From NCBI GenBank assembly GCA_000965745.1, contig CP009479.1, forward strand, positions 1-64,000: 64,000 nucleotides of DNA. The letters are read 5' to 3'. Position 1 is the stretch's first letter; each line of letters starts with the position of its first letter. The position numbers and the translations under genes are program-made. The notes under the pieces were generated by a model, which saw nothing but the letters and a program-made list of their open reading frames with translations, was not told the DNA's origin and searched no databases. The stretch comes from an uncultured archaeon. Its GTDB lineage: Archaea; Thermoplasmatota; Thermoplasmata; Thermoplasmatales; Thermoplasmataceae. This document shows positions 58,126 to 63,220 of the stretch, piece after piece.

Positions 58126-58286
58126 GTAACGGAACAGCCGTAATGGGCAAGATGAATAGCAAGAAGGTTCATGTTACATGTCGAAGATGTGGCCAGCATG
58201 CGTACCACGTCAGACAGAAGAGGTGCTCACACTGTGGATTCCCTAGCCCACGAATCAGATCTTTTAGATGGGCAAAAGCCAAGTGA
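58122..58286 (+). CDS. rpl37e: 50S ribosomal protein eL37
   Basis: A 54-residue protein reads MSNGTAVMGKMNSKKVHVTC, then RRCGQHAYHVRQKRCSHCGF and PSPRIRSFRWAKAK. The CxxC pairs (C20-x2-C23, C35-x2-C38) form the zinc ribbon, as in eL37. The GTG at 58122 overlaps the LSm stop; ATGs at 58143 and 58152 are other options. From 58234 on, the purF reading frame runs across this gene in another frame. Confidence 0.93.
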   Translation: MSNGTAVMGKMNSKKVHVTCRRCGQHAYHVRQKRCSHCGFPSPRIRSFRWAKAK

Positions 58287-59679
58287 GTATTGCGCAGTAG
58301 TAGGCTTCAACGGAGCTGATTCTGCCTTCGCAAATGTACTAGTTTCTCTAAAGTCCCTCCAGCATAGAGGGCAGGAAAGTGCCGGAATAGCAATTTATGA
58401 CGGCAATTCACTCAATGTCAGGAAGGGGATGGGCCTTGTTTCTGAGGTCTTTAGTGACAGCTACCTGGAAAACGGAGGGTCGCTGAAGGGAAAGGTCGGC
58501 ATAGGCCATACACGCTATTCCACTGCTGGAACTAAAACGCTGGAGAATGCGGGACCTTTTATTGTTTCAAATTCGATAGGGTACATGGCACTGTCCCACA
58601 ACGGTGAGATAGTGAACGCGGATCCCCTCAGGGAAGACCTCAAGAAAAAGGGCATGACATTCCTTACGTCTTCTGACTCGGAAGTCATGCTGAATGTGCT
58701 TTCGAAGGAAGTCGTTGAGAACGGAATCCAGCGTGGCCTCAGGCTTGCGATGGAGAAACTGCGCGGGGCATATTCTGCTGCTGTTGTTGTCAATGACAGG
58801 CTTTTTGCAATACGCGACCCGCACGGTTTCAGGCCACTTATCATAGGGAAGGTCGGCGAAAATTACATTGCGGCTTCAGAAAGCTGTGTCCTGGACATCC
58901 TGGGAGGAGACCTGATACGCGATGTCAACCCGGGGGAAGTTGTTGAGCTCACGGAGAGCGGCCCTGTGACACTATTTTCTGTTCCTGCGAAGAAAACCGC
59001 CCACTGCATGTTTGAATACGTGTATTTCGCAAGGCCGGACAGCGTCATTGACAAGATTGAAGTTTACAACGTCAGGATAAACCTTGGAAGAAAGCTTGCA
59101 AAGGAGCATCCGGTCGAAGCAGACATAGTGATCCCGGTCCCGGATTCTGCAAGGGCCCAGGCACTGGGATACTCAAATGAGTCGGGAATCGCATACGGGG
59201 AAGGGCTCATGAAGAACAGGTTCTCGGAGAGGACTTTTATTATGCCCAACCAGAAGTCAAGGACTTCCGCCCTGCGCCTGAAGCTCAACCCGATCAAATC
59301 TGCCATAGAGGGGAAAAGAATAGTCCTCGTTGATGACAGCATCATTCGCGGCAACACGATGAAGCACATCATAAAGATCCTGAGAAGGTCGGGTGCCAGT
59401 GAGGTCCATGTCAGGATAGGATCTCCTGAAATCATAGCTGCATGCTATTTCGGCGTGGACATGAAGACAAAGAAAGACTTCATCGCTGCAGGGAAGACCG
59501 ATGAGCAGATTAGGGAAGAGATAGGTGCCGATTCACTTGGGTACACGTCGATAGAAGGGCTTGTCGACAGCATCGGGATGCCTGAAAACAACCTGTGCCT
59601 GGGCTGCATTACAGGCAGATATCCCGTGAGCGTCGCAGGCGAGAGGCTGACGATGCAGACCGAACTTGAGAGCTACTGA
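58234..59679 (+). CDS. purF: Amidophosphoribosyltransferase with Fe-S cluster and propeptide
   Basis: The N-terminal nucleophile cysteine is in SEYCAVVGFNG. HRGQESAGIA and RYSTAG follow in the glutaminase domain, and VLVDDSIIRGNT binds PRPP. The four cluster cysteines of B. subtilis-type PurF are present (HCMFEYVYFARPDS, AACYFGVDM, and NLCLGC). There is no start codon between the eL37 stop and the catalytic Cys, so the protein must begin inside eL37: GTG 58234 would give an 18-20 residue propeptide, ATG 58198 a longer one. Both overlap eL37 in a different frame. It makes phosphoribosylamine. Confidence 0.92.
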   Translation: MDSLAHESDLLDGQKPSEYCAVVGFNGADSAFANVLVSLKSLQHRGQESAGIAIYDGNSLNVRKGMGLVSEVFSDSYLENGGSLKGKVGIGHTRYSTAGTKTLENAGPFIVSNSIGYMALSHNGEIVNADPLREDLKKKGMTFLTSSDSEVMLNVLSKEVVENGIQRGLRLAMEKLRGAYSAAVVVNDRLFAIRDPHGFRPLIIGKVGENYIAASESCVLDILGGDLIRDVNPGEVVELTESGPVTLFSVPAKKTAHCMFEYVYFARPDSVIDKIEVYNVRINLGRKLAKEHPVEADIVIPVPDSARAQALGYSNESGIAYGEGLMKNRFSERTFIMPNQKSRTSALRLKLNPIKSAIEGKRIVLVDDSIIRGNTMKHIIKILRRSGASEVHVRIGSPEIIAACYFGVDMKTKKDFIAAGKTDEQIREEIGADSLGYTSIEGLVDSIGMPENNLCLGCITGRYPVSVAGERLTMQTELESY

Positions 59680-60534
59680 TCAGGGCCTTTTTTCCATCAT
59701 TCTTTCTTTTATTGTGTCTCTCATGGACTCTACGTCCACCGTCCCGCCAAAATAATCTGCCCTTACCGCGATTGCGAGCTTGTTTGCGAGTGTTCTCGAA
59801 ACCCTTCCCCTTCTTTTCGGGGGAAGTGAAGATATTCCCGGGAACTTGAAGATCACGCCATGCTTGGGCGGTGGAGTTCCGGACCTCATATGCTTGAAGA
59901 AAGCCTTGTCTGCGCCAAGGACCTGTAAAGTGCTGGCAGGGTACCGCACAAGATTCTTCAGCCCCCCTCCGAGATATAATATTTCTGTTGCAAGATCGGC
60001 CCCAACGAGGGCTGTGCTGTTCGGCATCACCGTGCCTATCCGGCCTGCTATGAAAGTGGAAAGGTTCGTCCGGAGGCCGCACATCCTGACCCCCTCTGTA
60101 GAGATCTCCCTGAGGATCGTGTTCAGGCCGGGATCTTCTGTATCGGAGCCGATAAGGGCGAAGAACCTGCATGGATCATTTCCATATTCAGGAAACCCTG
60201 AAAGATGCTCCAGGACAGTGGTCTTCTCGAGATAGAGGTTGATTATCCTGTCCATCTCAAGCCTCAGGCCGAACAGCTTGATAATCAGCTGGTCTTCGGA
60301 GAACTCATCTTTGATCCTTCTTTTTCCGTAGCTTATCAGCCTTTCTCTTAGGTCCGGAATCGTCCCCGCTGCCTGTGTTGTTTCCGGAAGCCTTCCTTCC
60401 CTGAGGGTATCGAAAATCTCTTCGTAATTTTCCTCCAGACCTTTGAACTGGCCTGTCAGTTCTCCTTCTTCCACTATCCCGTACCACTTTATCTCTCTTG
60501 GTGGCTTTTTCTGGCCTTTTTTCTTGTTTTTCAT
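59680..60534 (-). CDS. nop5: Box C/D RNP core protein Nop5 (Nop56/58)
   Basis: The 284-residue protein has the Nop domain: NLSTFIAGRIGTVMPNST, then GADLATEILYLGGGLKNLVR, STLQVLGADKAFFKHM and PPKHGVIFKFPGI. It scaffolds box C/D guide RNPs with fibrillarin and L7Ae. The N-terminal domain is short and starts in KNKKKGQKKPPREIKWYGIV; the ATG at 60534 has GAGG 11 bases upstream. The first 230 bases overlap the cbf5 3' end in another frame, which is unusual for core genes. Confidence 0.92.
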   Translation of the reverse strand: MKNKKKGQKKPPREIKWYGIVEEGELTGQFKGLEENYEEIFDTLREGRLPETTQAAGTIPDLRERLISYGKRRIKDEFSEDQLIIKLFGLRLEMDRIINLYLEKTTVLEHLSGFPEYGNDPCRFFALIGSDTEDPGLNTILREISTEGVRMCGLRTNLSTFIAGRIGTVMPNSTALVGADLATEILYLGGGLKNLVRYPASTLQVLGADKAFFKHMRSGTPPPKHGVIFKFPGISSLPPKRRGRVSRTLANKLAIAVRADYFGGTVDVESMRDTIKERMMEKRP

Positions 60535-61486
60535 GGAAAACCTCAACCTTCCTCTTTGGTGCTTCTTCACTCACGGGCCTGGCCTTTCCCGGCCCCCTCT
60601 TCCTCTCGGGCTCGACCATGACCCTGTCGAAGTCCACGACCTTGAGGTCGGAAATATCTGATGAATGGACAAGCATCCTGCCCGTACCTATCAATTCGTT
60701 ATTTTCTGAAAGGACGCAGACCCTGTCGCCGATTCTTGCCTCCCCCACCATGGATTTTATACCTCCGGGGTAAAGGTCTGCGCCATGCGCGATGTTGTCT
60801 ATTGCTGATTTTTTCACGATGATCTTTGGCTTGTCACTGAAGAGATAATTCATCGGAAGGAAAATCCCCCTGAACGGCCTGTCATCGCCCTGGTTCATGA
60901 GCTCTACGGAGTCCTTGAGCTTCTGGATGGTTGTCATCCTGTCCTCCCTGAAAACTCCAGTTGAGATCCTGCGAAGGTCTGCCATCTGTGCACCAGTCCC
61001 AAGGACATACCCCATGTCAACACAGAGTGTCCTGATATAGGTCCCCGAGTCCGTCTTTGCCCGGAAAAGGATCATCTTGCCCTCCTTCTCCACCAGTTCC
61101 AGCTCGTATATCCTCCTGGACCTGATCTCCCTGGCCACTGCTGACTTCATTGGAGGAATCTGGTACACTTCCGTCTGGAACTCCTTCATGACTTCAATGA
61201 GCCTCTCTTCTGATACGTCCGAATGAATGCGCATTGCGCAGATATATTCCTTCGTGTCCTCATGGGCCACATCGATCAGCTTTACAGCTTTGCCGATCGC
61301 CATCACAAGCAGCCCTGTTGCATTAGGGTCGAGAGTGCCCACATGGCCAACCTTGTCGACCCCGAGGATCTGCCTTACCCAGTGGTCCACCTGGTGACTC
61401 GTCGGCCCCTTCGGCTTGTCTATGATAATGAATCCGTCCAGTTTATGGAACTTTTCCGGCGAGTCTGATTTTGTCATAAATTTCAT
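60305..61486 (-). CDS. cbf5: tRNA/rRNA pseudouridine synthase Cbf5 with basic tail
   Basis: The 393-residue protein has the TruB/Cbf5 core with catalytic D53 in HVGTLDPNATGLL, and a PUA domain ending near residue 290. About 103 further residues form a Lys/Arg-rich, unfolded-looking tail (PKRKVEVFHEKQEKRPEKA, then GGKLRRDFRYPQGRKA). Archaeal Cbf5 usually ends soon after the PUA domain. The last 76 residues of the tail share DNA with the nop5 head. Start ATG 61486 or 61477; both overlap cmk. Confidence 0.92.
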   Translation of the reverse strand: MKFMTKSDSPEKFHKLDGFIIIDKPKGPTSHQVDHWVRQILGVDKVGHVGTLDPNATGLLVMAIGKAVKLIDVAHEDTKEYICAMRIHSDVSEERLIEVMKEFQTEVYQIPPMKSAVAREIRSRRIYELELVEKEGKMILFRAKTDSGTYIRTLCVDMGYVLGTGAQMADLRRISTGVFREDRMTTIQKLKDSVELMNQGDDRPFRGIFLPMNYLFSDKPKIIVKKSAIDNIAHGADLYPGGIKSMVGEARIGDRVCVLSENNELIGTGRMLVHSSDISDLKVVDFDRVMVEPERKRGPGKARPVSEEAPKRKVEVFHEKQEKRPEKATKRDKVVRDSGRRRTDRPVQRSGGKLRRDFRYPQGRKASGNNTGSGDDSGPKRKADKLRKKKDQR

Positions 61487-61985
61487 TCACTACTTGCTCA
61501 ACAGATAGGTTTTCAGTATTTATAATGAGATCGTAGTATTTCTCATCCCTGTAGTCGATTCCATAGAATTCCCTGTACCTCTTTATCTCAGACTCCTCCC
61601 TTTCCCTGACAAGAGCCCTTATCTTCCCGGAATCGGACTGCTCCCTTCCCGATACTCTTTTCACCCGGGTCTCAAAGGGCGCGTCTATGAAAATCCTGAA
61701 TGAGTCAATGGAGTTGTTGAAGCATATCCACCCCACCAGCCTTGATTCCACAACAACGTTGTCGTTATTCCTCATGAAGCCAAGTATCAGGCTGTCCTGC
61801 TGCTTGTCTATGTCGATGTGGGTCTCTGCGTACACGTTGAATTCCTCAAGGCTCATGTTGTATTGTGCAGCGAGCTGTCGGAAAAAAGTCCCCCCGGAAA
61901 AAAATTCGTATTCGAGCAGTGATGCAAGTTTCTTGCCTACACTGGACTTTCCTGAACCGATGGGGCCACTAATCGTTAATTTCAT
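61443..61985 (-). CDS. cmk: Cytidylate kinase
   Basis: The 180-residue P-loop kinase has GPIGSGKSSVGKKLA at residues 7-21, SGGTFFRQLA and VVESRLVGW, with a lid near RVSGREQSD. The archaeal type is short, as here. It phosphorylates CMP/dCMP. Its 3' end overlaps cbf5 by 44 bases, and its start overlaps the EMC3-like gene by 17 bases. This order (secY-adk-DUF106-cmk-cbf5) is standard in archaea. Confidence 0.93.
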   Translation of the reverse strand: MKLTISGPIGSGKSSVGKKLASLLEYEFFSGGTFFRQLAAQYNMSLEEFNVYAETHIDIDKQQDSLILGFMRNNDNVVVESRLVGWICFNNSIDSFRIFIDAPFETRVKRVSGREQSDSGKIRALVREREESEIKRYREFYGIDYRDEKYYDLIINTENLSVEQVVNEIYDKIRLAGKVP

Positions 61986-62661
61986 TTTCAGTTGAGTATT
62001 CCATTCTCCTCAGCTTGTATGTGAAGTCGACGTACTTGATCACCATTGTGACGAAGTATCCCACCACCATAACCGCTAGGAAGTAGATGATGATCCAGTA
62101 GTATATGTATGCGTAGAAATGCGTGTTCAGGTTAACGTTCCAGTTCCACGGGAATGCAACTATTGCGTATGGCAGGTTTGCAATGAATGAGAACAGCCAT
62201 ATGAATATGAGGTAGGTCACCACACTGAATATCATCAGGGGCTTCATGGTGTTCATTGAGACCTGCTGCTGCTCCATTGTCACGTCCATCTGCATCTTCC
62301 TCAGCTTCTGGATCCTGTCCTTCTGGCCACTCTTGTAAGCTTCCCTCATTGTCTTGCTGAAAGCCTTCATCCTGTTCTGGGCCTTTCCCATCTTCAGCCA
62401 GTCCGTGAAGAAGTACCTGGGAATTGAGGTCACGACCCCTATAAGTATTCCTGCAAGTAGCAGAGTAAGGACAGGCAGGTCGAAGTTGAACCCTATGAGG
62501 GGCGAGAAAACTACATCCAGGGCATTGCCTATGGCAGTCCTCAGTGTAGTGTTGGACAATATAATGATATATACAAAGAAACTCAGCATGTAAAGCATCT
62601 GGGTCTGGAGGCCTTTTTTCATGCCTTCCTGCGGAGTTTTAGTCTTGTTCTGTTCAGTCAT
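61969..62661 (-). CDS. DUF106/EMC3-like membrane insertase
   Basis: The 230-residue protein has three membrane helices, one near the start and two in the C-terminal half, with a charged cytosolic coiled-coil loop (RMKAFSKTMREAYKSGQKDRIQKLRK; key part FSKTMREAYKSGQK). These match archaeal Ylp1/DUF106, the relatives of YidC, Get1 and EMC3. It likely helps insert membrane proteins with SecY, whose gene lies upstream. It overlaps adk by 8 bases. Confidence 0.9.
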   Translation of the reverse strand: MTEQNKTKTPQEGMKKGLQTQMLYMLSFFVYIIILSNTTLRTAIGNALDVVFSPLIGFNFDLPVLTLLLAGILIGVVTSIPRYFFTDWLKMGKAQNRMKAFSKTMREAYKSGQKDRIQKLRKMQMDVTMEQQQVSMNTMKPLMIFSVVTYLIFIWLFSFIANLPYAIVAFPWNWNVNLNTHFYAYIYYWIIIYFLAVMVVGYFVTMVIKYVDFTYKLRRMEYSTENEIND

Positions 62662-63220
62662 CTGTCCTCAGCCTTGATATGATAGTATTCGCTGCTATGT
62701 TAGGTTTTCCCTCGGGATTTTCTATTATGTTCACCGTGGCTCCCGTGAAAACAGAATATGCAGCGGCATAGTACCTGTTTATCTCCTGGTCCATTCTTAT
62801 GTCATTTTCAGTGGCTGCGTCCCTGTCTCTCGTGCTGTCGGTTGCCCTCCTGCTCAGTACGAGTGATGGGTCAGCCTCTATGACGAAGTATGCTCCGACC
62901 TTGAGTTCCCTGATGACCCACTCAGGCAATCCGGGGAGATAGCCACCGTGAGATTTTATTGACATGTGGGTGTCGATTATTACTGAATCCATCTTCCCAA
63001 TGGCTGCGGAGGCTTTCTTCTGCAGGTTGATCTGCGTGTCTACAGAAAGCTTCCTCAGTCCGTCTCTGTTCTCCACAAGGCCGATGTCCTTGGCCATTTC
63101 AAACATGAGGGTACCGAAGTTTATGATATCATAATTAGTCCCCTTCTTGACCAGATCCAGAACTGTCGATTTACCGACACCCGCGACTCCCGAAATTACG
63201 ACTCTCAATTTATCCACCAA
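62654..63220 (-). CDS. adkA: Archaeal adenylate kinase
   Basis: The 188-residue protein has the P-loop SGVAGVGKSTVLD at the start, FGTLMFEMAKDIG, and IIDTHMSIKSHGGYLPGLPEWV, as in archaeal AdkA, which has no zinc lid. It catalyses ATP + AMP to 2 ADP. Overlaps secY by 11 bases upstream and the DUF106 gene by 8 bases downstream. Confidence 0.93.
   Translation of the reverse strand: MVDKLRVVISGVAGVGKSTVLDLVKKGTNYDIINFGTLMFEMAKDIGLVENRDGLRKLSVDTQINLQKKASAAIGKMDSVIIDTHMSIKSHGGYLPGLPEWVIRELKVGAYFVIEADPSLVLSRRATDSTRDRDAATENDIRMDQEINRYYAAAYSVFTGATVNIIENPEGKPNIAANTIISRLRTDD

Follow-up and report, generated by a model that had tools for sequence, protein, structure and literature searches.

A long same-strand overlap of cbf5 and nop5 is conserved across twelve genera of the Thermoplasma family

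The closest described counterpart of a charged tail on Cbf5, the pseudouridine synthase of H/ACA particles, is the KKE/D domain of the yeast protein. This domain is electrostatic, disordered and dispensable for catalysis in vitro, but efficient modification of rRNA depends on it, as it recruits the particle to nascent rRNA; lysine-rich extensions were stated to be absent from archaeal particles (PMC11528048). Long same-strand overlaps of cellular genes, in turn, are commonly put down to faulty annotation. A 2008 survey of large overlaps judged all 715 co-directional cases of >60 bp to be misannotated (PMC2478687), and later work excluded overlaps of >59 bp on misannotation grounds (PMC3887535). 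The overlap of cbf5 and nop5 described here shares with the long prokaryotic same-strand overlaps the co-directional arrangement, the usual phase class and the 3′-extended upstream gene (PMC2478687, PMC3887535). It differs from the surveyed cases in being kept across 12 genera with clear selection on both frames. It is also akin to viral overprinted genes, in which a new protein segment arises in the second frame of an older gene and both are kept (PMC8227390); unlike the viral examples, cbf5 and nop5 are two conserved cellular RNP genes, and what was added is an extension at one end, not an entire protein. With ~190–250 shared bases, 12 genera, and close non-overlapping relatives as controls, the locus offers a good test case for the rise and persistence of overprinting in cells. 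No earlier report of a cbf5/nop5 overlap was found in the open-access papers searched.

The window, i.e. the whole stretch of 64,000 nucleotides that was analysed, belongs to a genome of 2.23 Mb in one contig. The features of the gene pair are collected in Table 1. On the minus strand, the overlap amounts to exactly 230 nt (60305–60534), the length counted by a first-pass annotation of this DNA, and takes in 75 Cbf5 residues. The nop5 frame is shifted by two bases relative to the Cbf5 codons, such that the wobble base of nop5 falls on Cbf5 codon position 1. The gene identities that had been assigned from the letters were borne out by Pfam and fold matches. The Pfam domains TruB_N, TruB_C_2 and PUA reach residue 282 of Cbf5, and the Nop domain is present in Nop5. 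The core of the AlphaFold model of Cbf5 is confident (pLDDT mostly >90) and matches the archaeal Cbf5 structures 3hax and 2apo, and the whole Nop5 model matches the archaeal Nop5 structure 3pla. The two proteins are thus an archaeal Cbf5, by its TruB catalytic and PUA domains and its fold, and an archaeal Nop5, by its Nop domain and its fold.

Table 1 Features of the cbf5–nop5 locus in the window.
Feature	Coordinates	Strand	Extent and evidence
cbf5 (H/ACA pseudouridine synthase)	60305..61486	−	393 aa, ATG 61486 to TGA 60305–60307
Cbf5 folded core, residues 1–292 (TruB + PUA)	60611..61486	−	Pfam; pLDDT mostly >90
Cbf5 C-terminal basic tail, residues 293–393	60308..60610	−	Composition; pLDDT; predicted disordered
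Overprinted stretch, last 75 Cbf5 codons + stop / first 76 Nop5 codons in the other frame	60305..60534	−	
nop5 (C/D RNP core protein)	59680..60534	−	284 aa, ATG 60534 to TGA; Pfam, fold match
Probable Shine-Dalgarno GAGGT for nop5, within cbf5	60540..60544	−	
cmk (cytidylate kinase), upstream of cbf5	61443..61985	−	44 nt overlap if the cbf5 start is 61486

The tail of the window Cbf5 carries 36 Lys/Arg and 15 Asp/Glu residues (net charge +21, pI 11.3), and its pLDDT is <50 over nearly all of residues 301–393, which agrees with the earlier description of the segment as Lys/Arg-rich and disordered-looking. In the Nop5 model the head is folded from about residue 11 on, with block means of 82–93. 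One stretch of DNA is therefore predicted to encode a disordered tail in one frame and a folded domain in the other.

The family set comprises 77 genomes in 19 genera of the Thermoplasma family, which we take to be Thermoplasmataceae in the GTDB sense. Its members include Ferroplasma acidarmanus Fer1, Acidiplasma aeolicum VT, E-plasma and Thermoplasma sp. FL, and the closed genomes of genus g6 are presumably those of T. acidophilum and T. volcanium. In this family cbf5 and nop5 are neighbours in every case where a single contig carries both in readable form, and they are adjacent also in family f4. An overlap of 194–248 nt in one common phase was found in 12 genera of these acid-loving archaea (g1, g2, g4, g5, g6, g9, g10, g14, g15, g17, g18 and g19, with one genome each for g1, g5 and g19); it covers the first fifth to third of nop5, which the tail enters by about 60–80 codons. 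In the other seven genera (g3, g7, g8, g11, g12, g13 and g16, where g8 is a poor, frame-broken assembly of low weight) the overlap is absent or ≤44 nt. Five of these seven encode a basic Cbf5 tail of 55–280 residues outside nop5. The longest tail in the family by far, about 280 residues in E-plasma (L120) and present also in L097 and L128, is rich in Arg, Lys, Gly, Ser and Asn and overlaps nop5 by ≤14 nt.

The end of Cbf5 was checked at 43 loci (L186–L228), 42 of them outside the family and the 43rd (L198) from F. acidarmanus. The whole folded core is alike in archaeal H/ACA Cbf5 (3hax, 2apo), whereas the sampled proteins from outside the family end soon after the PUA domain, mostly at or near a GxYPxxW motif with a few variant ends (e.g. 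L204 and L208), and a basic tail is absent from all 42. Throughout the Thermoplasma family the C-terminal GxYPxxW is missing and the tail stands in its place. The motif is a common, not strictly defining, feature of archaeal Cbf5, and the identity of the Cbf5 core without it is not in doubt.

The 230-base overlap is real. The first-pass annotation had proposed that Cbf5 ends and Nop5 starts be compared in relatives, and the comparison revealed neither a frame held open by error nor a Nop5 beginning after 60305. Every member of the 12 genera that is readable to the end has an open tail frame, and a sequencing error was therefore rejected. A wrongly assigned nop5 start was rejected as well: the Nop5 homology in overlapping relatives starts at a WYG motif inside the overlap, which fixes the start position, and no later start codon lies ahead of the motif. 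Chance opening of the frame was assessed by replacing the codons of the nop5 head at random with synonyms taken from the codon usage of the same genome's cbf5 core and the remainder of nop5, a small codon pool. The probability of an open Cbf5 frame was ~0.0001–0.07 per genome (genus medians 5e-4 to 1.4e-2), and despite these low values the frame is open in all 12 genera; in the genera without the overlap the corresponding stretch contains 3–9 stops.

Both frames are conserved across species, and synonymous constraint is confined to the overlap, as is characteristic of true overlapping genes. In 15 phylogenetically separate pairs, hand-picked from the tree, the synonymous differences per conserved nop5 codon were 0.18 inside the overlap (142/778) vs 0.39 outside (912/2364), with a Mantel-Haenszel odds ratio (OR) of 0.32 and p of 1.2e-26. 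The OR was <1 in every overlap genus tested, g18 and g4 alone being not significant, and p remained <1e-18 on dropping any one genus. Eleven control pairs without the overlap, one of which shares a near-zero branch and whose removal changes nothing, gave an OR of 1.00 with no head constraint, by which a 5′ codon-ramp effect was also rejected. When the bins were aligned on the cbf5 stop, the synonymous rate was 0.06–0.22 before the stop and 0.27–0.46 after it, the sparse last bin excepted. In the Cbf5 frame of the nop5 head, 0 stops were seen vs about 4.9 expected in overlap genera (4.95 vs 5.25 in controls), and of the possible nop5-synonymous transitions that would create a stop, 0/41 had occurred inside the overlap vs 35/283 outside. 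Finally, against a null conditioned on an open frame, the charge z of the tail was >0 in 12/12 overlap genera (mean +2.46, the excess being small in g6, g18 and g19) and in 1/7 control genera, and near zero (−0.15) in the rest of nop5 of the overlap genera.

A functional RNA element in the nop5 head, such as a structure, a guide RNA or a long start region, would likewise reduce synonymous variation. However, the tested overlap has no Rfam match, the constraint stops with cbf5 itself, at whatever point between 194 and 248 nt its stop codon lies, and the controls lack head constraint. Since stop avoidance, charge bias and the lack of stop-creating changes are specific to one frame, they point to a protein, and we give an RNA element hardly any credence as the cause. 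Neutral read-through, in which the cbf5 stop was lost once and the shifted frame stayed open by luck to yield a functionless tail, would draw on two circumstances. Read in the shifted frame, a Nop5 head leans towards a basic composition already under the null, where the mean charge was positive in the genomes tested, so that basic composition alone proves little, and long same-strand overlaps are commoner in this phase (PMC3887535, PMC2542354). Luck alone, however, does not predict a synonymous constraint that stops at the cbf5 stop, 0 stops in 12 genera, an absence of stop-creating changes, or a basic codon bias seen only in the overlapping genera, and this account is very improbable. Judged from the substitution patterns, the Cbf5 tail is under protein-level selection and both frames are kept by selection. 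Beyond what the first-pass annotation had recorded, selection maintains the overlap across a whole clade, and the basic tail is kept in relatives without the overlap. The OR of amino-acid change in the Nop5 head relative to its body is 1.11 in overlap genera vs 3.02 in controls; because the head thus changes about as slowly as the body where the overlap is present, against three-fold odds in controls, the overlap probably constrains the Nop5 protein too.

The start of nop5 lies inside cbf5. A Shine-Dalgarno-like match precedes it in most overlap genera (combined p = 3e-4 over 12 genera), with none in g14, a weak one in g4, and P of 0.11, not significant, in the window genome alone. Termination-reinitiation in the archaeon Haloferax needs a start at about −8 to +10 nt from the upstream stop (PMC10666635), whereas the nop5 start is placed about 190–250 nt before the cbf5 stop. 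Because such a backward step is outside the measured range, internal initiation is preferred: Nop5 would be made from its own start and ribosome-binding site inside cbf5 rather than by re-initiation after the cbf5 stop, and classical stop-restart coupling is unlikely. The suggestion that the overlap couples production of the two RNPs is weakened by this distance, and also by the shorter, more coupling-like arrangements found in the non-overlapping relatives. The overlap could still be mainly a coupling device that balances H/ACA and C/D proteins, with the tail sequence incidental, and the proximity of cbf5 and nop5 throughout the family and in f4 would suit such a role. A device of this kind, however, has no need for a basic or conserved tail, archaeal re-initiation, as measured, depends on very short distances, and the short overlaps suited to coupling sit in relatives without the long one; we consider it improbable.

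The tail resembles the KKE/D tail of eukaryotic Cbf5/Nop56/Nop58 (PMC11528048) in that it belongs to the same H/ACA protein, follows the PUA domain at the C-terminus, is predicted to be disordered and is net positive. It differs in its mixed Arg/Lys composition without Lys doublets, in its independent placement, and in being partly overprinted on nop5. The mean tail net charge is about +16 in overlap genera vs +13.6 in no-overlap genera, Lys and Arg making up about a third of residues in both; Lys accounts for a mean fraction of 0.48 of Lys+Arg, or about half, the tails are rich in Gly, Pro and Asn, and Lys doublets alternating with Glu/Asp do not characterize them. The archaeal tail is likely a functional analogue of KKE/D, not a homologue. 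Where basic tails are concerned, the Thermoplasma family is an exception to the absence of charged extensions from archaeal Cbf5, and it counters the view of charged Cbf5 tails as eukaryote-only.

Composition and the analogy with yeast KKE/D suggest that the tail may bind RNA electrostatically, which would hold the H/ACA RNP near pre-rRNA, or near guide and tRNA substrates. Alternatively, a functional tail might serve protein–protein contacts or stability, for example as a docking site for Nop10, Gar1 or the ribosome, or as a substitute for the GxYPxxW end that is missing in the family; a short RKKKDKR-like patch near its end is conserved, though largely dictated by Nop5. Bulk electrostatics is favoured instead by the poor conservation of the sequence, by its disorder, and by the non-overlapping genera arriving at a similar net charge with different sequences, and the contact or stability role is rather unlikely. 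We regard it as probable that the Cbf5 tail is a real, translated and selected RNA-binding extension overprinted on nop5, with Nop5 initiated internally. The Cbf5 tail of g13 is a counterpoint: it comprises only about 21 residues, and therefore a long tail is not indispensable everywhere. A wider proposal is put forward tentatively, namely that a disordered, charged, eukaryote-like Cbf5 tail arose independently in an archaeal family and concentrates H/ACA particles on pre-rRNA, and that one clade overprints this tail on nop5, tying the evolution of both modification systems at the single-base level. Cultures of Thermoplasma, Ferroplasma and Acidiplasma exist in which both proteins could be examined.

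As the sequences show, the family lost the GxYPxxW end beyond the PUA domain, and most of its genera gained a basic low-complexity tail. The rise of the overlap itself may be envisaged as follows. In the ancestor of the overlapping clade, a cbf5 stop near the nop5 start would have been lost, with reading continuing through the K/R-rich shifted frame of the nop5 head; the longer tail would have been useful, and nop5 codon choice would then have been tuned to keep the frame open and basic. Homology of the nop5 head extends beyond the overlapping clade, and the Cbf5 tail is therefore the newer reading; outside the family, Cbf5 ends near residue 290–300. In g3 and g12, two basal genera without the long overlap, and also in g11 and g16, short overlaps already show the same frame relation, so that loss of the cbf5 stop suffices to make a long overlap and is its natural route. 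These observations support the earlier proposal that the tail is new coding sequence gained by loss of a stop codon, and the rarity claimed for such long overprinting in core genes is supported as well. In the best tree (LG+C20) the overlap genera lie on one side of a branch with SH-aLRT of 75, implying a single origin and no loss. The LG+F+G4 tree places a g7/g11/g13/g16 clade inside the overlap genera with weak support, implying one gain and one loss; the deep branching order in the family is weak. The idea that Cbf5 took over a tail lost by Nop5 is unsupported: in this family Nop5 ends soon after the Nop domain, any tail being short, and the sampled f4 relatives are no different.

Several features of other genes were observed in addition. 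Fibrillarin and nop5 are adjacent in many archaea; in the window genome the fibrillarin gene is distant from nop5 (G000:C1:2185244-2185807, L229). Gar1 matches Pfam only below the cut-off and is divergent in this organism (G000:C1:1260770-1260934, L230). The nop5 stop abuts the stop of a convergent, purF-like glutamine amidotransferase/phosphoribosyltransferase gene (58171–59679) with 0 bases between them (window 59677–59682). Upstream of cbf5, a chain of small overlaps on the minus strand (window 61443–63220) connects an AAA_17-type kinase, an EMC3/TMCO1-like membrane protein (8 nt), cytidylate kinase (17 nt) and cbf5 (44 nt, given a cbf5 start at 61486).
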